DNA of 32,428 bases from Bacteroidota bacterium (GTDB lineage: Bacteria > Bacteroidota > Bacteroidia > Bacteroidales > VadinHA17). The stretch covers positions 1-32,428 of the forward strand of contig DSCJ01000096.1 of assembly GCA_011049175.1 (NCBI GenBank), read 5' to 3'. The stretch's first letter is position 1. Each line of letters starts with the position of its first letter. Positions 12,552 through 25,318 of this stretch are shown here, piece after piece. The notes below the pieces were generated by a model. The model did not search any database, was not told the DNA's origin, and saw nothing but the letters and a program-made list of their open reading frames with translations. Both the position numbers and the translations under genes were made by a program.

Positions 12552-13298
12552 TCAGTCTGTTACTATCCAGCTTCCCCCGATCAGACAGGGTGTGTTTCTT
12601 GGGGTGATGTATTTGGCTACAATGTCGATACGGGTTCCTGACTGGTTTCTGCTGAGGGGGATTTCTCCCGTACCTTTTTCCCCTCCCAGGGGGGGGCGGT
12701 CGGCAGGCAGGTATTTGCCTTCCAGTAACTTGCCCGGATAAAACGTTACCCTGGATGAACGGTTGGAAAGCTGTACCACGAGCAATCGCTGGCCTTCGTA
12801 ATCCCGGTTGCGAACAACCCTGAATACAATGGACGGATAGATTTTTTCCGGGTCGCCTTCGTGATCGAACTCATGGATCACATTGCTGATCATTCCCTGA
12901 TGGAAATACACCTCCGACATCAGCTGGCCGCTTTTGTAATACCGCCTTTCCCATCCATGCTGTATGCCCATCTCATAGGAACGCTCCCGGTACACTTCAC
13001 CGGTTCCGTAAAATTTCTTTTCAATGCCGTGTTTTTTCCCGTCCACATAGTTTACTTCCGTATTTTTTGTACCGTCGGAGTAAAACGAAACGGAAGGTCC
13101 GTTCGGGACGTTGTTTTTCATGGTGACCTTTGAGTACAGGTTCCCCTCTTTGTCGTAGAAATTCCTGACATAGGTATCCGGTTTTTCTGCCAGGGTGTCT
13201 TTTTCACCGGTGGCGGGTTCCGGCCCGGAGGAAGACCTGCAGGCTACGGCCCACAGAGATATGGCTACAGGTATGAGTACGATCAAACGGGATTTCAT
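12552..13298 (-). CDS. MORN-repeat (YwqK-type) lipoprotein
   Basis: This 248-residue protein starts MKSRLIVLIPVAISLWAVAC, a lipoprotein signal with the lipidated cysteine at residue 20. About residues 48-140 hold three to four MORN_2/YwqK-type repeats of about 22-23 residues ('NGPSVSFYSDGTKNTEVNYV', 'HGIEKKFYGTGEVYRERSYE', 'HGWERRYYKSGQLMSEVYFH'). The C-terminal ~100 residues are not recognised and look like a beta-rich domain. It is probably an envelope-anchored protein facing the periplasm or outer membrane. Some databases name such repeats YwqK antitoxins, but no toxin is adjacent here and I do not infer one. It lies 39 bp after the permease genes on the same strand, so it may be the third gene of that operon. 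A hairpin covers the start codon. An in-frame ATG at 13334 would give a poorer signal peptide. Confidence 0.85.
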   Translation of the reverse strand: MKSRLIVLIPVAISLWAVACRSSSGPEPATGEKDTLAEKPDTYVRNFYDKEGNLYSKVTMKNNVPNGPSVSFYSDGTKNTEVNYVDGKKHGIEKKFYGTGEVYRERSYEMGIQHGWERRYYKSGQLMSEVYFHQGMISNVIHEFDHEGDPEKIYPSIVFRVVRNRDYEGQRLLVVQLSNRSSRVTFYPGKLLEGKYLPADRPPLGGEKGTGEIPLSRNQSGTRIDIVAKYITPRNTPCLIGGSWIVTD

Positions 13299-13322
13299 GG
13301 GATGCCTGGTTTTTATCCCATG
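13296..13322 (-). promoter_or_regulatory. Hairpin sequestering the lipoprotein start codon
   Basis: In the mRNA (minus strand) CATGGGAT and ATCCCATG form a perfect 8-bp stem with an 11-nt loop (13304-13314). The final ATG of the right arm is the chosen start codon at 13298-13296. Closing the stem would hide the start, so ribosomes arriving from the upstream permease gene or a regulator could control access. Function is inferred. Confidence 0.45.
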
Positions 13323-13337
13323 AAGATAACACATTTT

Positions 13338-15755
13338 TTACTCATATTTCAGGGTTTCTGCCGGATTGGTCCTGGCCGCCTGCCAGGTCTGGTAACCCAG
13401 TGCCAGCCATACAACCGCCAGGGAAAGGATGCCTGCCGTCAGGAAGATCCACCATTCGAACCCGATCCGGAACGGGAACTGCCTGAGCCATCCCCTGACC
13501 AGATGCCATGCAACGGGCCATGCCAGAAGGTTGGCTACCAGGGTCATTTTCAGAAATTCGGCGCTGACTTCCTTCATCACACGCCCCATTCCTGCCCCGA
13601 ACACCTTGCGAATGCCTATCTCCCGGGTCCTTAGTTCGGTCAGAAACATCGACAGGCCGAACAGTCCCATGGAAGCGATCACCATGATCAGGACCGTAAA
13701 GAGATGGAGCACCTTTTTCAGCCTGATCTCCTCACGGTACATCCGTTTGAATTCATCTTCCAGAGGAGTGACGGAAACATCTGCATCGGGATAGATATCG
13801 AAAGCAGCTGCCATAATCCCTTGTCTTACCATTTCGGACGGGAATCCCTGACCGTATCTCACGACCACTTCCCGGGTCATTTCCGGATCGGGGACAAATG
13901 CCATGGGTTCAAAGGGATTGTGCAGGGAGTGGTAGTGAAAGTCTTCCACCACCCCGATAATATGCCCCAGATCGGTGGTGAAACTCAGGGGATTTTCCAG
14001 GTTCATTCGTGCGGCTGCCGTTTCATTGATAATGACGGCCTCCCGGTCGGTTCCCCTTTCATCAGAGAAGAATCTTCCCTGTAACAGCCTGAAGCCCATG
14101 GTTTCCATGAATGAATAATCCATATAGATCATTTCAATGGCCATGGTTTCTTCGGGATTACCCGGGAGGGATATCTGTGTGTTGAAATAACTGTTGGTAG
14201 GTGGCGCCCAGAGGGTACCGGCTGCAGCCTCCACACCCTGAATCCCCCTGATTTTTTCCAGGAAGGCAGGATAATGGGTTTGAAAGGCGTCGTCCCTGAT
14301 CCTTACCTTCAGGATGTTTTCATGGTGATATCCGGGATCCCGGTGAAGCATGTAATGGATTTGACGTTGTATGAAACCTGTTCCGGTAAGCAATCCCGAG
14401 AAGCTCAGTATCTGAAAGAAAACCAGACTTTTACGAAATATAGCCCTGTTGCGGCCGCTGACCGGTGATCCCTGGATGATCTGTACCGGCGGAGTACGGG
14501 AAATGAAGGCTCCGGTGTACCAGCCCGATAACAGACCGATGATCAGTGTGATCAGCAGGAAAAGCAGGATGATGCCCGGACTGTTGTGGTAGATGCCGAT
14601 CCTTGTTTCGAACAGGCGATTGATCATGGGAAGGTTGATCTCAACCAATATCAGGGCCAGAGGGAAAGCCAGCAATACAAACAGGATGGCTTCGGTGAAA
14701 TGCTGTATGTACAGGTCGCCCATACCGGCTCCCAGCACCTTTCGCACGGCCGACTCCCGGGTCCGTTTCATGGCCGAAGCGGTAGTGAGGATCATGAAGT
14801 TGGTGGTGGCTACCAGCAGGAGCAAAAACCCTATCAGGGAAAAGAGATAAAGATCCCGCAGATTGCCGGCCGGTATCCACAGGTTAAACAGATGACCGGA
14901 GTGAAGGTGTATGTCGTACAGGTTTTGCAGTCTGTATTCTGTGGTCCCTGCGGGATGACGTTTTCCTGTCAGCTCTGCCAGGTTCCTTTCCACCTGTTCA
15001 GGTTCTGTTTTTTCTTCCAGCAGAAGGAACAGGGGGCATACCGCAGCATACCATGAGGTTTTGAGAAATGTTTCGTCCAGTGTTACCTGCCCGTTGGTGA
15101 TCAGATCGTTCCGCATGAACAGGAAAGCCATATCCATTCCGGTGAGGAAATCGGCCGTGATGGATGATCCGGCGGGCATGTCTTCAAAAACAGCCCGGAT
15201 CTCCAGGGAATGTGTTTCTCCTTTCGACCGTACCAGGAGGTTTTGCCCAATGGGATTCCCTTCTCCAAAGAGTTTGCGGGCCTGGCTTTCCGAAACGGCA
15301 ACTTTCCCGGGCCCGGCAAAGACTTCCTGAGGGCGGCCCGCTTTCACCTGGAAAGAAAAAACCCTGAAAAATCCACTGTCTGCACACAGTATGCGGGCTT
15401 CCCCGGAGAATTCGCGGGCAGGCCCCGTTTGTACGCCTGCAGGCCGGTAAGTGAAATTTTCAGTGAAATACAGGGGAACTACTTCTTTTACACCCGGTAT
15501 TTCTTCCCGTATCATATTCCCCAGTACAAGGGGGCCCCAGGGGACATCGGTGTGGTGCAGTGTGTCATGGGCGATTATCCGGTAAATGCGGTCTCCGTTG
15601 GTGTGGAATCTGTCATATGACAGTTCTGTTCTCAAAAATCCCATGATGAGAAAAGAGGATGCCAGGCCCACCGATAATCCGGCCAGAATGATGAATGAAA
15701 CGGATTTTTGCCTGCTGATGATCCTCAGACTGCTTTTCAGGTATTTGACGACCAT
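13338..15755 (-). CDS. FtsX/MacB-type ABC transporter permease (second of a pair)
   Basis: This 805-residue permease has an N-terminal membrane helix (about 20-41), a first periplasmic MacB-like core (about 45-290) and an FtsX module starting near 300 with the coupling motif 'TRESAVRKVLGAG' (332-344). A second periplasmic core and a C-terminal FtsX module follow ('LRTREIGIRKVFGAGMGRV'), ending in 'AARTNPAETLKYE'. Such permeases work with a separate ATPase in mechanotransmission or lipid/peptide export; none is encoded nearby. I place the start at 15755 because AGGAGG lies 7 nt upstream, a perfect Shine-Dalgarno. The upstream in-frame ATG at 15803 overlaps the stop of the preceding permease gene. 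It is paralogous to that gene (same architecture and tail), which suggests a tandem duplication or heterodimer. Confidence 0.92.
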   Translation of the reverse strand: MVVKYLKSSLRIISRQKSVSFIILAGLSVGLASSFLIMGFLRTELSYDRFHTNGDRIYRIIAHDTLHHTDVPWGPLVLGNMIREEIPGVKEVVPLYFTENFTYRPAGVQTGPAREFSGEARILCADSGFFRVFSFQVKAGRPQEVFAGPGKVAVSESQARKLFGEGNPIGQNLLVRSKGETHSLEIRAVFEDMPAGSSITADFLTGMDMAFLFMRNDLITNGQVTLDETFLKTSWYAAVCPLFLLLEEKTEPEQVERNLAELTGKRHPAGTTEYRLQNLYDIHLHSGHLFNLWIPAGNLRDLYLFSLIGFLLLLVATTNFMILTTASAMKRTRESAVRKVLGAGMGDLYIQHFTEAILFVLLAFPLALILVEINLPMINRLFETRIGIYHNSPGIILLFLLITLIIGLLSGWYTGAFISRTPPVQIIQGSPVSGRNRAIFRKSLVFFQILSFSGLLTGTGFIQRQIHYMLHRDPGYHHENILKVRIRDDAFQTHYPAFLEKIRGIQGVEAAAGTLWAPPTNSYFNTQISLPGNPEETMAIEMIYMDYSFMETMGFRLLQGRFFSDERGTDREAVIINETAAARMNLENPLSFTTDLGHIIGVVEDFHYHSLHNPFEPMAFVPDPEMTREVVVRYGQGFPSEMVRQGIMAAAFDIYPDADVSVTPLEDEFKRMYREEIRLKKVLHLFTVLIMVIASMGLFGLSMFLTELRTREIGIRKVFGAGMGRVMKEVSAEFLKMTLVANLLAWPVAWHLVRGWLRQFPFRIGFEWWIFLTAGILSLAVVWLALGYQTWQAARTNPAETLKYE

Positions 15756-15762
15756 TTGGGTA

Positions 15763-15768
15763 CCTCCT
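15763..15768 (-). promoter_or_regulatory. Strong Shine-Dalgarno that sets the permease start
   Basis: The minus strand reads ACAGGAGGTACCCAAATG, with AGGAGG 7 nt before the ATG at 15755. Full anti-SD complementarity is uncommon in this phylum, where most starts in the window show none. It therefore argues for this ATG over the one at 15803, and for strong independent initiation. Confidence 0.7.
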
Positions 15769-15795
15769 GTTTTTAAACGTATTTCCTTTTCGTTA

Positions 15796-18162
15796 TTATT
15801 CATATTTCAATACCTCCGCCGGATTGGTCCGTGCCGATTTTACGGCCTGAAAACTTACCGTCAGCAGGGTGAGCAGAAGGGAAAGCACGGTACCGGCAAA
15901 AAAGACCATGGGATCCAGGCCGATCCGGTACGGGTAGTTCTGCAGCCACTGATGTAAAGCATACCATACCAGGGGATAGGCCAGCAGATTGGCCAGCAGG
16001 ATTCTGGCGGTGAACTCTCTCATGAATAACAGGGCGATGCTCAGGCTGTCTGCTCCCATGGCTTTCCGTACCCCGATTTCCCGGGTGCGCCTTTCGGTGG
16101 CAAAAAGCGACAGGGCAAACAATCCCATGCTGGCCAGGAAAATGGCCAGGATCGTGGCTACAAGCACTGTCTGTGCGAATTTCTTTTCCGTTTCGAACAT
16201 ATGGCTCAGGCGGTCCTCAAGAAACTGACCGTAGAAGGCTGTTCCGGGAAAAATTTCGTCAAAGGCGGTTTCCACCTTCCCAATGGTTTCCGGATGCGTG
16301 TTGCCCAGTTTTACTACCACGTTTTCCCGGCGGTTCCATGGATTCAGAGTAATCACCAGGGGGTTTATTTTTTGCTGTACAGGACTGTAATGAAAATCTT
16401 CCACCACCCCGATGACGGTGAATGTGGTATCGCGGAAAATGGTTTTTCCCAAAGGTTCTTCCCATCCAAGCTCCTTTACCAGGGTTTCATTGACCAGCAT
16501 GGCATACCGGTCGTCGGCCCGTTCTTCCGAAAAATTCCGGCCTTTCCTGATCCTGATGCCAAGGGTGGAGATATAGGAAGGATCAATATCCAGTGCATGG
16601 AACATCATCGATTTTTCGTAACCTTCCGGCCGGTAGCCGTTCATGGTCAGCCCGTAGCCCGGAACTCCCGAACCCATCCCGGCTGCCCTAACCTGGGGAA
16701 TTCCGCTGAGACGGTTCCTCAGCAATCCGGCTTTCTGCTGCATTTCTGCATTGATCATCGGTATGACCAGGATGTTTTCCCGGTCATATCCGGGATCTTT
16801 TTTCTGCAGGTAATCGAGCTGCAGGTAGATGAAAGCTGTGGCGATGATCAGTGCCACGGAAATAATATACTGGATGATCACCAGGGTATTCCTTAACACC
16901 GGTTTCCCGGTGGATGACTCCGTCATCCCGCGGAGGGAACGGATCGGGTCCATCCCCGACAAGCGGACGGACGGGTACAGGCTCGATATACCGCTCACCA
17001 CGATCAGTAACAGGGGATACCCCAGCAGCAGCTTCCAGGGGGTGATCTGGTACAGATGAATTTCGGTGCCTGTGAGCCGGTTGAACGAAGGCAACAGCAT
17101 TTCCACCATGATCAGGGAAAGAATGCCGGCCAGAAGAGTCATCGACAGGGTTTCTGTGGTGAACTGCCTGATCAGTTTGTCGCGGGTGGCGCCCGCTGCT
17201 TTCCTGATACCTATTTCCCGTGCGCGCTGAGAACTGCGGGCGGTAGTCAGGTTGATATAATTAAAGGCGGCGATGAGCAGGATAAGCAGGGCGATCCCGC
17301 TGAAGATCAGGGTGCGGGTAAACGTGCCGGTCCGGCCCAGTTCATAGTCGTAATCGGCAAACAACCTGATCTTCTTTACGGGAAAAAGAGACAGGTCGAC
17401 CCGGGCCCCGTAATTTTCATATTCCCGGTTGATCTTTTCATACACCAGGGGAATGAACTTTTTTTCCAGGGTGTCCGGAGAAACCCCTTCTTCCAGCAGC
17501 AGGTAGGTATAATAACTGTAACCTCCGTCCCAGGATATGTACGGATCGAACAGACGGAAATAATCATCCATCGACATGATCAGGTCGAAATTCAGATGTC
17601 CCTCGTCGGGTGGATCTTCCACCACACCTGTTACCGTACACGCTGTCAAATGGTTCCAGTCGATCGTTTTCCCGACCGGATCTGCTTCCCCGAAAATTTT
17701 TTCAGCCATCGAGCGGGTGATCACCACCGAGCCCGGCCTGGAAAGCACATCGGCCGGATGACCATGCAGCAGGTTAAAGCTGAATACCTGAAAGAAATTG
17801 GTGTCGGCAAAAAAACCTCCGATATCCCTGAACACCTTCTCTTCGTATTCAACCATTCCTCCCAGATCGATCAGCCTGACCTGCGAGCGGATCTCCGGAA
17901 AAGTGGCCGCCAGCGCGGGACCCATTACCGGACTCGAAATTGCCCCCAGGTTTTCCTTCCCCTGTATAACCAGGTTCACCCTTAATCGGTACAGGTTATC
18001 AATGTTTGTGTGGAACCGGTCAAAAGAGATTTCCCGGTTTACATACAACAGGATCAGAAGGGAGCAGCTGATGCCAATGGCAAGCCCAAAAATATTAATG
18101 AATGAAAACATTGCCGAGCGGCGTACAAACCGGATGGTGGTTTTCAAATAATTCCGTATCAT
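15796..18162 (-). CDS. FtsX/MacB-type ABC transporter permease (first of a pair)
   Basis: This 788-residue permease has the same plan as its downstream neighbour: an N-terminal helix ('FSFINIFGLAIGISCSLLIL'), a periplasmic core starting 'NREISFDRFHTNIDNLYRL', then FtsX modules. Their coupling motifs are 'RAREIGIRKAAGATRDKL' and 'RRTREIGVRKAMGADSLSI', and the tail is 'SARTNPAEVLKYE'. The two coupling-helix motifs are the surfaces that meet an ABC ATPase, which must be encoded elsewhere. It is the first gene of the operon, behind a sigma54-like promoter and a 24-bp palindrome, and is divergent from the response regulator/histidine kinase genes. Its stop codon overlaps an in-frame upstream ATG (15803) of the next gene. 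Substrate is unknown. Confidence 0.92.
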   Translation of the reverse strand: MIRNYLKTTIRFVRRSAMFSFINIFGLAIGISCSLLILLYVNREISFDRFHTNIDNLYRLRVNLVIQGKENLGAISSPVMGPALAATFPEIRSQVRLIDLGGMVEYEEKVFRDIGGFFADTNFFQVFSFNLLHGHPADVLSRPGSVVITRSMAEKIFGEADPVGKTIDWNHLTACTVTGVVEDPPDEGHLNFDLIMSMDDYFRLFDPYISWDGGYSYYTYLLLEEGVSPDTLEKKFIPLVYEKINREYENYGARVDLSLFPVKKIRLFADYDYELGRTGTFTRTLIFSGIALLILLIAAFNYINLTTARSSQRAREIGIRKAAGATRDKLIRQFTTETLSMTLLAGILSLIMVEMLLPSFNRLTGTEIHLYQITPWKLLLGYPLLLIVVSGISSLYPSVRLSGMDPIRSLRGMTESSTGKPVLRNTLVIIQYIISVALIIATAFIYLQLDYLQKKDPGYDRENILVIPMINAEMQQKAGLLRNRLSGIPQVRAAGMGSGVPGYGLTMNGYRPEGYEKSMMFHALDIDPSYISTLGIRIRKGRNFSEERADDRYAMLVNETLVKELGWEEPLGKTIFRDTTFTVIGVVEDFHYSPVQQKINPLVITLNPWNRRENVVVKLGNTHPETIGKVETAFDEIFPGTAFYGQFLEDRLSHMFETEKKFAQTVLVATILAIFLASMGLFALSLFATERRTREIGVRKAMGADSLSIALLFMREFTARILLANLLAYPLVWYALHQWLQNYPYRIGLDPMVFFAGTVLSLLLTLLTVSFQAVKSARTNPAEVLKYE

Positions 18163-18192: not shown

Positions 18193-18210
18193 GTTCAATT
18201 GCTGTACCAA
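18193..18210 (-). promoter_or_regulatory. Sigma54-like -24/-12 promoter of the permease operon
   Basis: The minus strand reads TTGGTACAGCAATTGAA. Against the consensus YTGGCACG-N4-TTGCA it keeps TTGG, AC, the exact N4 spacing, TTG and the closing A. It differs at three positions, including A for the usual C of the -12 GC. The predicted start is about 20-25 nt before the permease ATG at 18162. A sigma54 activator gene is divergently encoded next door. Confidence 0.5.
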
Positions 18211-18281
18211 TATAAATAATAAACATATTATCAGGTAAATACAAATTAATTGACAGGTTGGTAAGAGAGAATATGTTTCAT

Positions 18282-18305
18282 AATGATACAAACGTTTGTA
18301 TCATT
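18282..18305. promoter_or_regulatory. Perfect 24-bp palindrome, likely enhancer/operator
   Basis: AATGATACAAAC is followed directly by its reverse complement GTTTGTATCATT, with no mismatch and no spacer. The centre (18293/18294) lies about 85 bp upstream of the sigma54-like -24 element of the permeases and about 58 bp before the regulator start at 18352. This is the usual distance for an NtrC-type enhancer site. The most likely ligand is the adjacent Fis-type response regulator, an inference. Confidence 0.65.
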
Positions 18306-18351
18306 TCGGAACAGATTGATTATCTTGTTCCGGATTCGGATTTCTGATGCC

Positions 18352-19707
18352 ATGAAAAAAGGAACGGTTCTGATAGTGGATGATGACCGCGACGTACTGC
18401 TTTCCGCCCGCGTGGTGATGAAAAAGGAATTTCCGGTGGTGCTGGTGACTACCGATCCGGAGAAAATACCGGAAATTCTGAAGAAGGAAGAGGTGGATGT
18501 GATATTGCTGGATATGAATTTCCGGGCCGGGGAAAGTGACGGGGAAGAGGGGATGAGGTGGTTGCGAAATATCCATGCAGCGGATCCGGATATCCAGGTG
18601 GTGGTGATCACGGCATACGGCGATATCAACCTGGCTGTGGCAGCCATGAAAGAAGGGGCGTGCGATTTTGTGGTGAAACCCTGGGACAACCAGAAACTGC
18701 TGGCAACGGTCCGGTCCTGCTACCGTTACCGGGAAGCCGGCAGGGAGATACGCCGCCTGGAAAACACCCGCCGTGCCATACAGGGTGATGTGCCGGGGCA
18801 GATGATCGGTGTGTCGAAGCCCATGCAAAACCTGTTCGACATGGTGGAGAAAGTGGCTCCCACGGATGCCAGTGTACTGATCACCGGCGAGAACGGAACG
18901 GGAAAGGAACTGGTGGCACGCCGCCTGCATCATCTGTCACACCGGAGCAACCAGATTTTTCTGACGGTGGATCTGGGCGCCCTTTCTGAAAATCTTTTCG
19001 AATCGGAATTGTTCGGGCATGTGAGAGGGGCCTTTACCGATGCCCGGGAAGACCGCCCGGGGAAATTTGAAGTAGCTTCGGGAGGAACCCTTTTCCTCGA
19101 TGAAATAGGAAACCTGTCCGTTCCCATGCAGGCCAAAATGTTGACAGCCCTTCAAAACCGGCAGGTTTACCGGGTGGGATCGAACCGCCCCTTGGAATTT
19201 GATGTGCGGTTGATATCGGCTACCAACAGGCCGCTGCAGGAAATGGTGAAAAACGGCCGGTTCAGGCAGGACCTGCTTTATCGCATCAATACGGTGGTGA
19301 TCCATGTGCCTCCACTGCGCCAGCGGAAAGAAGATATCCCATTGCTGGTAAATCATTTTACCGGTGTGTATGGACAAAAGTACAACAAAACCGGCCTGCA
19401 TGTAAATTCCGATGATATGAAACGGCTGGAAAACTATTCCTGGCCCGGCAATGTAAGGGAGTTGCAGCATATGGTGGAAAGAGCGGTGATTCTGGCCGAC
19501 AGGAATACCCTTGATTTTTCGGGGGTGAAACGGCAGCCGGCTTCACCGGTAGCAACCATGACTGAGAGCCTGAATCTGGAGGAACTGGAAAGGCAGGCCA
19601 TTGCCGAGGCTATCCGGAAACACGGCGGAAATATGTCGCGGGCCGCCGCTGAACTGGGCCTGGGAAGAACCACCCTGTACCGCAAAATGGAAAAATATGG
19701 CCTTTGA
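18352..19707 (+). CDS. Sigma54-dependent response regulator (NtrC family)
   Basis: This 451-residue protein has three modules. The receiver (about 1-120) has acidic residues D10/D11, phosphoacceptor D54, switch T87 and K109. The AAA+ domain (about 150-385) has Walker A GENGTGKE (179-186), Walker B 'GGTLFLDEIG' (244-253) and the arginine-rich 'PPLRQRKEDIP'. A C-terminal Fis-type HTH ends in 'GNMSRAAAELGLGRTTLYRK'. The sigma54-contact loop reads GAFTDA (226-231) rather than GAFTGA, a natural variant whose effect here is unknown. I use the ATG at 18352; the open frame begins at 18283, inside the palindrome. Its kinase follows 24 bp later. The divergent permease operon, with a sigma54-like promoter and an upstream palindrome, is its probable target. 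Confidence 0.93.
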   Translation: MKKGTVLIVDDDRDVLLSARVVMKKEFPVVLVTTDPEKIPEILKKEEVDVILLDMNFRAGESDGEEGMRWLRNIHAADPDIQVVVITAYGDINLAVAAMKEGACDFVVKPWDNQKLLATVRSCYRYREAGREIRRLENTRRAIQGDVPGQMIGVSKPMQNLFDMVEKVAPTDASVLITGENGTGKELVARRLHHLSHRSNQIFLTVDLGALSENLFESELFGHVRGAFTDAREDRPGKFEVASGGTLFLDEIGNLSVPMQAKMLTALQNRQVYRVGSNRPLEFDVRLISATNRPLQEMVKNGRFRQDLLYRINTVVIHVPPLRQRKEDIPLLVNHFTGVYGQKYNKTGLHVNSDDMKRLENYSWPGNVRELQHMVERAVILADRNTLDFSGVKRQPASPVATMTESLNLEELERQAIAEAIRKHGGNMSRAAAELGLGRTTLYRKMEKYGL

Positions 19708-19731: not shown

Positions 19732-21084
19732 ATGGGTTCCTGTTTCAGGTTACGGATAGTATTCCGGGTGGTTCTGATCGGTGTGGTCATGGCCTGGCTG
19801 GTATACGTCCTGGGGAAAAATCAATGGTATGTAACCACGGGAGTATCCGCCCTGGTTCTGGTCGGGTTGCTGATCGAACTGGTGAAGTTCCTGGAAAAAA
19901 CCAACCGCGACCTTGCCCATTTTCTGTCATCACTCGAAAGCGACGATCCGGCCGTTATGCCGGTGAACAGGCCTGCCAACCGCTCGTTTGAAGAGCTATA
20001 TGAAGCGATGTCCCGCGTGGCAAGTCGCATGGAAGTAGCCCGTACCGACCGCGAGGTACAGTACAGGTATCTTCAGACAGTAATCAACCACGTGGAGATC
20101 GCCATGATCTGTTTTCGCGAAGACGGTCGGGTGGAGCTGGTGAACCGGGCGGCCCGGAACCTGTTCAGGCTGGAAAGGATCAGAAGGCTCGGCGATATTG
20201 AATCCAGGGATCCGTCGATGTACCGGGTGATACGGGAAATCAAACCCGGCAAACGGGAACTGGTGCGTTTTATGTCGCATTCGGGCATGACAAAGCTGTC
20301 GGTGTCGGCAGCCGCCTTTAATCTGCAGGGCCGGGGATACCGGTTGATTTCCCTTCAGGATATCGGAACGGAGCTGGAGGCCCAGGAACTGGAGTCGTGG
20401 CAGAAGCTGATCCGTGTGCTGACCCATGAGATCATGAATTCCGTAACGCCCGTTTCTTCCCTGAGCAATGCCCTGAACGATATGCTTGCAGGCGAAAACG
20501 GGGATCTGCGGCCGCTGAACAGCCTGGATCCCGGCGAGGTGGAGGATCTGTATGAAGGGTTGCGGGCTATCGAACAGAGAAGCCGGGGCCTCCTGTCGTT
20601 CGTCGGATCCTATAAAAACCTGACCCGTTTGCCCGATCCGCAATTCAGGGATGTTTCCCTGAACGACCTGGTGGCGGGAACCGTTCATCTCATGAAACCG
20701 CAGTCAGAGAAATCAGGGGTCTGCATCCGCCAGAAACTTTCGCAAGAAGATCCTCATGTGCCGGCCGATCCCGATATGATGGAAAGGGTGCTGATCAATC
20801 TGTTACAGAATGCCCTTGACATTCTGGAAGGGCAGGCCGGAGGTGAAGTGGTGGTTTCTACGGGCATCGACCGGGAGAAAGGACACTGGATAGAGGTACG
20901 TGACAACGGTCCCGGAATCCCGCCGGAAATCCTTGACAAAATATTTATCCCCTTCTTTACCACAAAGAAACAGGGCTCGGGCATAGGACTCAGCCTCATC
21001 CGCCAGATCATGCAACTGCACAAAGGGTCGGTCAGTGTCCGTTCCGCACAGGGTGAAGGGGCTGCTTTTATTATCCGGTTCTGA
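19732..21084 (+). CDS. Membrane sensor histidine kinase
   Basis: This 450-residue kinase has two N-terminal membrane helices (about 8-27 and 33-51) joined by only a few residues, so there is almost no periplasmic sensor. A PAS-like domain follows (about 108-215, 'TVINHVEIAMICFREDGRVE'). The H-box is 'LTHEIMNSVTPVSSL' with H232. The ATPase domain has the N-box 'NLLQNALDIL' (N356, N360), G1 'DNGPGIP' (391-397), F-box 'FIPFFTTKK' and G2 'GSGIGLSL' (415-422). It should phosphorylate the regulator encoded 24 bp upstream. With hardly any external loop, the signal is probably sensed in the membrane or cytoplasm, perhaps through contact with the divergent permeases. Confidence 0.92.
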   Translation: MGSCFRLRIVFRVVLIGVVMAWLVYVLGKNQWYVTTGVSALVLVGLLIELVKFLEKTNRDLAHFLSSLESDDPAVMPVNRPANRSFEELYEAMSRVASRMEVARTDREVQYRYLQTVINHVEIAMICFREDGRVELVNRAARNLFRLERIRRLGDIESRDPSMYRVIREIKPGKRELVRFMSHSGMTKLSVSAAAFNLQGRGYRLISLQDIGTELEAQELESWQKLIRVLTHEIMNSVTPVSSLSNALNDMLAGENGDLRPLNSLDPGEVEDLYEGLRAIEQRSRGLLSFVGSYKNLTRLPDPQFRDVSLNDLVAGTVHLMKPQSEKSGVCIRQKLSQEDPHVPADPDMMERVLINLLQNALDILEGQAGGEVVVSTGIDREKGHWIEVRDNGPGIPPEILDKIFIPFFTTKKQGSGIGLSLIRQIMQLHKGSVSVRSAQGEGAAFIIRF

Positions 21085-23506: not shown

Positions 23507-25318
23507 ATGAAAGAAATGTCAGTATTGCCAGCCCATATTATTCGTTTGAACGGTACCGGCCTGTATACTCTTTTCCTGGCGGGAGCCGGAAAGCTGTTTG
23601 AGCACCAGGAGGAGATCAACCTCATTAACGTATTTCCGGTACCCGATGCCGATACCGGTACCAACCTGGCCTCGACCATCCGCGCGGTGATCGACCAGCT
23701 GAAACCCGATAAGTCATTCAAGAACACGGCCGATGCCATGGCACTGGCAGCCCTGACCGGCGCCCGGGGAAATTCCGGGGTGATCTTTGCCCAGTTCCTT
23801 TACGGGATGAGTGCCGAAGCGCCCCGCGAACAGGAGGTTAGTGTTTCGTCTTTTGCCGATTCAGTGAAAAAGGCAGTCAACTATGTGTACGATGCCCTGA
23901 GCCATCCGGTGGAGGGCACCATGCTGACCGTGATCAGGGAATGGGCCGAATATATCCACGCCCGGAAAGAAGAACTGAAAGATTTTAACGAAATGCTGAG
24001 CCGGTCACTGGAAGTGGCCAGAGAGTCGCTGAAAGGAACTACCGAAAAACTGAAGGAACTGTCCATGGCCCAGGTGGTGGATGCCGGCGCCAAGGGTTTT
24101 GTCGTTTTCCTGGAAGGGATGATGGAATATGTAACCGACAGGAACCTGAAAAAAGTGTTGAAAGTGAGCCGCGATGTGGTGCATCTGGATGCCGTACATG
24201 ATACTTCCTACCGGGAAATCAACTACCGGTACTGCACCGAAGTGCTGCTCAGGGGAGAAAATATCGACAAAAACCAGGTGAGGGAACTGGCCGATGCCAG
24301 CGGTGACTCGGTGGTGATCGCCGGCTCGGGACAGACCCTGAGGCTTCACGTGCATACCAATCACCCCGATACCCTGGTGGCCGGTCTCAACCGGTACGGC
24401 CGTATTGCCTTCCAGAAAGCCGACGATATGGTGCGCCAGTACGAAATGATCCACCACCGGAAGTCTTCCGTGGCCCTGGTGACCGATTCCACCTGCGACC
24501 TGCCGGAAGTGATCATGGACCATTACCAGATCTACCAGCTTCCCATACAGGTGGAAATCGGCGGTTCCCACTACCTCGACCGGCTGACCATCAAGCCTGA
24601 ACAGTTCTATTCCCTGATGCAGGATAAAAAATCGGCTCCCACCACCTCCCAGGTCAACGAAACGGCTTTTGTGCAGCTATATTCCCGGCTGCTGAATTAT
24701 TATGATTCGGTGATCGCTGTCCACCTGTCAGGGCATTTTTCAGGTACCTGGAAGAACAGTGTACAGGCGGCCCGGAAAGTGTCGAATGAAACAGGCAGGA
24801 AGATCACAGTGATCGATTCAAAACAGATCTCGGGAGGAATGGGCCTGGGTATTCTGAAAATGGCCCGTGGCCTGGAAGAAGGCAAATCGCACGAAGAAGT
24901 GGTGCGTCTGGGAAAGCGCTGGTTTTCCTCCGCCCGCCTGTTTGTGGGCGTACGCGATCTGAAATACCTGGTACGCAGCGGCAGGGTCAGTCCCCTGAAA
25001 GGATTTATTGGGAAGATGCTGAACATGAAACCCATTATTACGGTCGATCCCGAAGGGAAGGCAGCCCAGTTCGGGAAAACGGTAAGTCAGAAAGGCATCC
25101 TGAAAATGATCCTCCGGGAAATCAGAAAAATCGAGAACCAGGGCGGTATTGAGGACTATGTGGTGCTCCAGGCACGGAATCCGGAAATGACGAACTGGTT
25201 TACCGCTGAAATGAAAAAGATCACCGGGAGGGATCCTGTGTCGGTGGTACAGATTTCCCCGGCCCTGGCCCTGCATGCCGGGGTGGGAACCGTAGCCGTG
25301 GCCTTGCTGAGAAAGTGA
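23507..25318 (+). CDS. Fused fatty acid kinase: FakA-like (DAK2/DhaL) plus FakB-like (DegV)
   Basis: This 603-residue protein joins two normally separate partners. Residues about 10-205 are a DhaL/DAK2 kinase domain with the Mg-ATP motif 'NVFPVPDADTGTNL' (D47, D49, N53) and 'ALTGARGNSGVIFAQFL'. About 206-315 matches the FakA middle region ('YCTEVLLRG', 'LRLHVHTNHPD'). From 321 to the end is a DegV/FakB fatty-acid-binding domain: 'ALVTDSTCDLP' (323-333), 'APTTSQ' (377-382), 'HLSGHFSGTW' (406-415), and the basic 'YLVRSGRVSPLKGFIGKML' near residues 485-503. In Firmicutes, FakB presents an exogenous fatty acid to FakA, which makes acyl-phosphate for phospholipid synthesis. Here one chain should carry both steps, probably recycling or importing fatty acids. 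An ATG at 23516 is an alternative start. Confidence 0.92.
   Translation: MKEMSVLPAHIIRLNGTGLYTLFLAGAGKLFEHQEEINLINVFPVPDADTGTNLASTIRAVIDQLKPDKSFKNTADAMALAALTGARGNSGVIFAQFLYGMSAEAPREQEVSVSSFADSVKKAVNYVYDALSHPVEGTMLTVIREWAEYIHARKEELKDFNEMLSRSLEVARESLKGTTEKLKELSMAQVVDAGAKGFVVFLEGMMEYVTDRNLKKVLKVSRDVVHLDAVHDTSYREINYRYCTEVLLRGENIDKNQVRELADASGDSVVIAGSGQTLRLHVHTNHPDTLVAGLNRYGRIAFQKADDMVRQYEMIHHRKSSVALVTDSTCDLPEVIMDHYQIYQLPIQVEIGGSHYLDRLTIKPEQFYSLMQDKKSAPTTSQVNETAFVQLYSRLLNYYDSVIAVHLSGHFSGTWKNSVQAARKVSNETGRKITVIDSKQISGGMGLGILKMARGLEEGKSHEEVVRLGKRWFSSARLFVGVRDLKYLVRSGRVSPLKGFIGKMLNMKPIITVDPEGKAAQFGKTVSQKGILKMILREIRKIENQGGIEDYVVLQARNPEMTNWFTAEMKKITGRDPVSVVQISPALALHAGVGTVAVALLRK

Follow-up and report, generated by a model that had tools for sequence, protein, structure and literature searches.

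Among the enhancer-dependent circuits of bacteria, those of the NtrC type, such as glnA-ntrBC and zraSR, act together with σ54 and consist of a regulator with receiver, AAA and Fis parts, a kinase partner, and tandem dyads of about 17 bp placed upstream of a -24/-12 promoter element. A second kind of system, the Bce-type module, combines a short-loop kinase with an adjacent FtsX-family permease that carries large extracytoplasmic parts, and includes an ATPase and an OmpR-type regulator. The locus considered here lies in a stretch of 32,428 bp (hereafter the window) of contig DSCJ01000096.1 from a Bacteroidota bacterium, and shares features with both. As in glnA-ntrBC and zraSR, a receiver-AAA-Fis regulator is found together with tandem dyads, a -24/-12 element and a kinase; unlike these circuits, the regulator carries a GAFTDA loop, the target is a permease operon without an ATPase, the distance between element and dyads is nearly constant (64–67 bp), and the half-sites vary among paralogues. 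Likewise, the short-loop kinase (about 12 residues between its membrane segments) and the adjoining FtsX-family permeases are reminiscent of Bce modules, whereas the lack of an ATPase in the operon, the regulator with its AAA+ and Fis HTH domains in place of an OmpR-type one, and the duplicated MacB-type permeases are not. The parts are those of classical NtrC/σ54 biology.

The locus is, with good confidence on comparative grounds, best explained as a divergent two-component/σ54 switch for an ABC3-type permease operon. Upon stimulation, the short-loop kinase would phosphorylate the NtrC-type regulator, whose dimers would bind two tandem 17-bp dyads (consensus TGTTTC-N5-GAAACA, 23 bp from centre to centre). 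The bound dimers would then assemble an AAA+ ring about 65 bp upstream of the -24 box, roughly 100–120 bp upstream of the transcription start, and this ring would open the σ54-RNA polymerase at positions 18194–18209, leading to transcription of the permease operon. One of the two sites lies on the probable housekeeping promoter of the regulator gene, where binding may limit the synthesis of the regulator itself. The dyads, their spacing, the element, its fixed distance and the match between operator and recognition helix are established at the level of sequence comparison.

As regards the target genes, a survey published in 2025 reported that σ54 promoters are enriched before COG0577 permeases in Bacteroidia, and its authors call the link between σ54 and FtsX-like permeases new and the first evidence of its kind (PMC12316311). 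The system described there has the same kind of target gene and the same σ factor as the window locus. The survey scores promoters: its main text contains none of the terms UAS, palindrom- and divergent-, and the available passages describe no operator pair, spacing or operator-helix match (PMC12316311). Similarly, a search of open-licence papers returned no description of paired operators, of the fixed distance or of the operator-helix match. While the earlier proposal that σ54 controls FtsX-like permeases rested on promoter scores, here the predicted switch can be seen as a whole, with its regulator, its two sites and their distance from the promoter, as well as a way in which sibling systems may be kept from cross-talk.

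Two dyads and a σ54-like element between divergent genes

A sequence-only reading of this DNA had pointed to a flawless 24-bp palindrome as the site of the regulator. The palindrome, AATGATACAAACGTTTGTATCATT, is indeed present at 18282–18305 and perfectly self-complementary; by our own arithmetic, about 0.002 perfect palindromes of this length are expected by chance per 32 kb of even base composition, and a search of the 3.24-Mb assembly with the 8 central positions unconstrained finds its pattern a single time. It constitutes the inner part of a 40-bp double dyad at 18274–18313, formed by two predicted regulator sites of 17 bp each: site 1, TGTTTCATAATGATACA (TGTTTC-N5-GATACA, 18274–18290), and site 2, TGTATCATTTCGGAACA (TGTATC-N5-GGAACA, 18297–18313), separated by the self-complementary 6-bp spacer AACGTT (18291–18296). 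The palindrome is hence made up of the inner halves of both sites plus the spacer. Sites 1 and 2 together score 21.5 of 24, the best of 2280 shuffles reaching 18.5 (sequence shuffles are first-order Markov resamples throughout). The double dyad occurs once in its own genome, the next-best place having 3 mismatches, and on this basis the circuit looks local rather than part of a large regulon, single or divergent sites being of a kind that would escape the dyad search.

A second genome of the same genus preserves the element, the two dyads and the sequence immediately beyond site 2. Its spacer is GTATGT, and the stretch that separates element and dyads has largely diverged. Since the spacer diverges within the genus and the dyads stay, the double dyad is the conserved object, and the perfect palindrome is partly an accident. 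The enhancer proposed for this place therefore stands, but the unit that is conserved is the pair of 17-bp dyads. The 24-bp palindrome was discarded as a conserved unit: its centre differs within the genus, and relatives keep the dyads without it. No RNA family was found in the window at gathering thresholds.

The σ54-like -24/-12 element, TGGTACAGCAATTGAA, faces the permease operon from the minus strand (18194–18209), where it reads as GG-N10-GA from 18209 down to 18194. Its -12 box lies about 86 bp from the palindrome, in agreement with the earlier description of a permease-facing element at about 85 bp, and the element as a whole is 65 bp from the dyads, as in relatives. Scored on a σ54 consensus it attains 16.2 of 20, a value reached by the best element in 1% of 300 shuffled flanks. 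The -12 dinucleotide is GA, as opposed to the classical GC; the element is retained within the genus, and relatives have one at the corresponding position. Elements were scored relative to the dyads, and this one ranks best only within 120 bp of them, the best σ54-like string over the 300 bp before the regulator being another one, inside the permease coding region (16.7). From the position of the element, the permease transcript would be predicted to start at about 18184. σ54 itself is encoded in the same genome (PF04552, one match, E 1e-51).

Relatives of the regulator were drawn from 60 genomes (30 loci kept), from wider stretches at 20 places and from 80 public-record loci, yielding 130 usable regulator loci, or 114 after removal of repeats and of loci with too little upstream DNA. 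Upstream of these regulators the expression TGT..C-N5-G..ACA gave ten hit pairs, seven of them non-redundant, with a spacing of exactly 23 bp in each. The double dyad scores 20.5–23 of 24 in eight of the 114 non-redundant loci, again compared with 18.5 for the best of 2280 shuffles. The TGTTTC-type operator is absent from the other 106, many of which have other half-sites, other divergent genes or none. The divergent neighbourhood could be sorted at the 111 loci with enough upstream DNA: a permease comes first in 29, an adaptor/ATPase operon with a permease is found in 18 and one without a visible permease in 17 (some of these contigs end early), another gene is divergent in 25, and none is in 22.

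A search for the double dyad by DNA alone, allowing at most 2 mismatches, matched 16 of 393 genomes of the order, compared with 2 of 393 for a reversed-pattern control. A permease homologue adjoins 11 of these 16 sites, and in all 11 a σ54-like element lies 64–67 bp away on the permease side, the weakest (13.2 of 20) being that of L143; in nine of the 11, the regulator is encoded within 1.5 kb on the other side. Four of the 11 come from one genus, and relatedness inflates these counts. The remaining five sites have no homologue of the window proteins within 1.5 kb (3 kb checked) and no element at 64–67 bp among the two best on either side. When both search routes, which overlap in part, are taken together, 16 distinct sites result (L138, L140 and L146 were omitted as repeats of L076, L052 and the window), and the best element within the search range of 21–115 bp from the dyads falls at 64–67 bp in 15 of them, against 0.72 expected from shuffled flanks. 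In the sixteenth, L053, the element lies at 55 bp, about one helical turn nearer. Two loci, L135 and L136, have a double dyad and a σ54 element beside a permease and no regulator homologue within 1.5 kb; they are possibly further targets of regulators encoded elsewhere.

The dyads were also sought without any motif. An inverted-repeat meta-profile anchored on the element (41 of the 114 loci) gave no clear peak, perhaps because dyad centres differ by 1–2 bp. A flexible count of dyads with at least 10 of 12 pairs found them at 63–68 bp in 13 of the 41 loci, against 7 of 205 shuffles and, for six other offsets, 0–5 of 41. Lowering the threshold to 9 of 12 pairs gives 21 of 41 versus 1–18 of 41 for the other offsets, so that separation is clear only at high scores. 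Motif-free tandem dyads are weak, with three of 114 loci at a length of 17 bp and a spacing of 23, and five of 114 at 16 bp and a spacing of 20 (0.2 expected in each case). At L025, a permease-divergent locus, a long inverted repeat, its arms of 18 bases (one mismatch) enclosing a loop of 2 bases, lies 87–125 bp before the regulator start and sits off the usual distance from the element.

The single local circuit put forward by the sequence-only reading thus survived comparison with related loci, beside whose genes the dyads, the element and the 64–67 bp spacing are kept. Its NtrC-type regulator and its enhancer at a fixed distance from a permease-facing σ54 element are supported, and the palindrome as a unit had to be given up.

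The regulator, its kinase and the operator letters

The gene divergent to the permease operon (18352–19707, plus strand) encodes an NtrC-type response regulator comprising a receiver (PF00072 at residues 6–120), a σ54-activation AAA+ domain with a GAFTDA loop (PF00158, E 5.4e-66) and a Fis-type HTH with the helix GRTTLYRK (PF02954 at 409–449). The phospho-acceptor motif of the receiver, LLDMN, is present here and in 107 of the 114 regulators. Named NCBIfam equivalogs stayed under their curated cut-offs for this protein (AtoC 352.9 of 714 bits, ZraR 345.1 of 760, NtrC 351 of 558.6). The next gene (19732–21084, plus strand) encodes a histidine kinase with PAS-like and ATPase domains and two membrane segments joined by a very short loop, the hydrophobic stretches at residues 9–25 and 38–54 being about 12 residues apart. 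The profile matches confirm the divergent pair of NtrC-type activator with Fis HTH and kinase that had been recognized from the letters, and the short distance between the segments bears out the remark that the kinase has almost no periplasmic loop.

The loop that contacts σ54 reads GAFTDA in 88 and GSFTDA in 24 of the 114 regulators (112 together), versus the usual GAFTGA. GAFTDA is listed among the loop variants that maintain activation (PMC4641369), and the NorR variant G266D, changed at the corresponding loop position, is constitutive and escapes repression by the sensor domain (PMC2941729). By analogy with this escape, control of GAFTDA regulators may lie less in a gated loop than in the regulation of their assembly.

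In relatives, the gene directly following that of the regulator gave 92 proteins; two segments near the start, with a gap of at most 14 residues, are seen in 80 of them, and one of the 92, at L062, is clearly no kinase. Predicted membrane segments so close together leave these kinases little space for a sensor domain in the periplasm. The prevalence of short loops in the family, and the presence next door of permeases with large extracytoplasmic domains, would be compatible with a variant of the same switch in which the permeases act as the sensor and activate the kinase, as in Bce modules. This variant is a tentative possibility on the unlikely side, given an operon without an ATPase, a regulator of the NtrC type, and the many related kinases that are encoded beside adaptor/ATPase operons or other genes.

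Irrespective of the sensor, the divergent switch would also bear on the regulator gene. A probable housekeeping promoter of this gene extends over site 2 (18296–18328, plus strand), with TTG at 18296–18298 and TATCTTGT at 18321–18328, as judged against a Bacteroidetes promoter consensus and from a position common to relatives. At 11 of 16 loci a TAnnTTTG-like -7 box starts 4–8 bp beyond site 2, against 2.4 expected, under a lax test in which TA is fixed and two of the four TTTG letters suffice; in seven of the 16 it starts exactly 5 bp past the site. A TTG overlapping the beginning of site 2 is seen in 12 of the 16. A σ70 scan was uninformative (3 sites versus 1.8 expected). Since site 2 overlies this promoter, regulator binding there would dampen the regulator's own synthesis, which suggests autoregulation; the earlier idea that the regulator might control its own gene from the same place is consistent with the position of these boxes. 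At four loci (L116, L115, L090 and L107), a TGGCAC element faces the regulator gene from 54–153 bp upstream, suggesting σ54 autoregulation instead of a housekeeping promoter in some Cytophagales.

The same overlap, seen in most relatives, could be read in another way, namely that the dyads serve mainly the regulator's own gene, the permease operon being controlled separately and the σ54 element being weak or idle. Such a division is improbable, in that the element and its distance are conserved facing the permease, even at L135 and L136, where no regulator is encoded within 1.5 kb.

A further line of evidence in favour of the divergent switch comes from paralogous or distant loci, which often keep the frame (element, about 65 bp, two dyads about 22 bp apart) with other operator letters. 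These are TGTCCA/TGGACA at L021 and L037; TGTTCA/TGAACA at L190, L192, L194 and L195; TGTATC/GATACA at L100 and L123; and TGTTCG with AGTACGAA-CG..ACA at the adaptor-ATPase loci L046, L047, L191 and L199. A cultured species with this frame is Roseivirga seohaensis (L059), where a permease comes first and the element is 64 bp from variant dyads; among the named loci, the exact TGTTTC-type pair occurred in metagenome assemblies only. The recognition helices differ along with them: R[TS]TLYRK-like helices accompany TGTTTC, RGALYRR accompanies TGTCCA, RTTLYAK accompanies TGTTCA, and RTSLYRR accompanies TGTTCG. For a quantitative comparison, 35 operators were recorded before the helix of each locus was seen, the loci being author-chosen ones with a legible operator. 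With merged helix classes (30 loci), the similarity of operators amounts to 0.797 inside a class and 0.624 across classes, the merging and the omission of L003, L189, L193, L196 and L201 both having been decided after the helices were seen. With unmerged labels (33 of the 35 operators, L193 and L201 being left out for having a single dyad only), the values are 0.744 and 0.610, a smaller difference (0.134 versus 0.173). In both tests, 0 of 5000 label shuffles reach the difference.

The match crosses orders, the operators of L112 (Splendidivirga corallicola) and L053 (a Cyclobacteriaceae assembly) being in line with those of Bacteroidales-type loci that share their helix class; relatedness contributes to the similarity. 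Because the half-sites co-vary with the recognition helix, the dyads are very probably bound by the NtrC-type regulator encoded next to them. An unrelated repressor or activator that used the palindrome as its operator on a housekeeping promoter, the -24/-12 match being due to chance, might be invoked from the frequency of AT-rich palindromes among operators, from the TTG/TAnnTTTG-like promoter overlapping site 2 and from the GA at -12, but is the most improbable of the readings considered, as it sits badly with an element at 64–67 bp in 15 of 16 sites (0.72 expected) and with operator letters that track the helix of the neighbouring regulator. Under the divergent switch, by contrast, each regulator appears to own a private device, the same layout with other operator letters recurring beside related genes in other Bacteroidota. 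Loci in which the letters change on a constant frame offer a ready set for deciphering how Fis-type recognition helices read DNA, and the frame assigns regulators to their targets without experiments.

The permease operon and the question of its ATPase

The predicted target operon lies on the minus strand and starts with a duplicated MacB/FtsX-type permease (15796–18162), followed by a second one (13338–15803, with homology from 15755) and, as its probable last gene, by one for a MORN-repeat protein (12552–13334), assigned to the operon by strand and spacing; beyond it lies a DUF4914 gene. A search of the PDB matched the first permease to MacB chains (best E 2.3e-11). Both permeases stay below the curated cut-off of the ADOP family (TIGR03434; 292.2 and 247.3 versus 622.3 bits), likeness to which is limited to the duplicated MacB_PCD/FtsX architecture. 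The match to MacB, and the HlyD-type adaptor, ABC ATPase and outer membrane efflux protein encoded at related loci, recall MacAB-TolC; unlike that system, the window operon encodes no adaptor, ABC ATPase or outer membrane channel.

Where the regulators are among the nearest to that of the window, at L052 and L076, the operon consists of ATPase, permease and CreD. The CreD-type inner membrane protein (L052:1270-2607 and L076:1229-2566) is a possible clue to envelope stress. In the window's own genome, with 12 strong permease matches, one close relative of the L052 ATPase (84% identical) is encoded on contig C8. This gene (locus L047) is divergent to a paralogous regulator-kinase pair and is accompanied by an HlyD-like adaptor and an outer membrane efflux protein; the locus has no permease, and its operator differs (TGTTCG). 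In all, 32 ABC ATPase matches were found in this genome, mostly weaker, and one with 33% identity, in a frame of 514 residues, is encoded about 1.6 kb away from a permease on contig C71.

Across 148 genomes, at the chosen cut-offs, the permease was found in 70 and the ATPase in 80; both are present in 69 of the 70 permease-bearing genomes (the exception being G047), the ATPase only in 11, and neither in 67. Per-genome scoring covered at most 7 candidates, which makes any count of 7 a lower bound. A permease and such an ATPase are neighbours, no more than about 5 kb apart, in at least 24 of the 70 genomes that encode the permease, for example in G049, G057, G087, G110, G138 and G179. Positions were compared in eleven genomes: permeases within about 5 kb of the ATPase are two of two in G010, one of one in G019 and one of nine in G042, while none is near the ATPase in G000 (0 of 12) or G002 (0 of 5). 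In G004, a genome 68% complete with N runs in some stretches, 20 permeases were counted and the ATPase was not found.

ECF transporters draw on a common energy module, and a shared ATPase module may energise surplus permeases here too; the co-occurrence of permease and ATPase could also come from common ancestry of complete systems. In its widest form, this would amount to a modular exporter family, in which one highly conserved σ54-controlled chassis of adaptor, ATPase and outer membrane channel would energise permeases encoded elsewhere, each permease operon would answer to a short-loop kinase and an NtrC-type regulator of its own, insulated from its siblings through an operator-helix code on a constant promoter frame, and the permease would be the detector. 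This is considered doubtful, and the estimate, low from the start, was reduced a little further because permease and ATPase are such close neighbours in at least 24 of the 70 genomes. If permeases that lack an ATPase did draw on a common energy module, this would explain how such permeases work. Elsewhere in the window, at 23507–25318, a single reading frame encodes a fused DAK2/FakA-middle/DegV protein resembling a fatty acid kinase.
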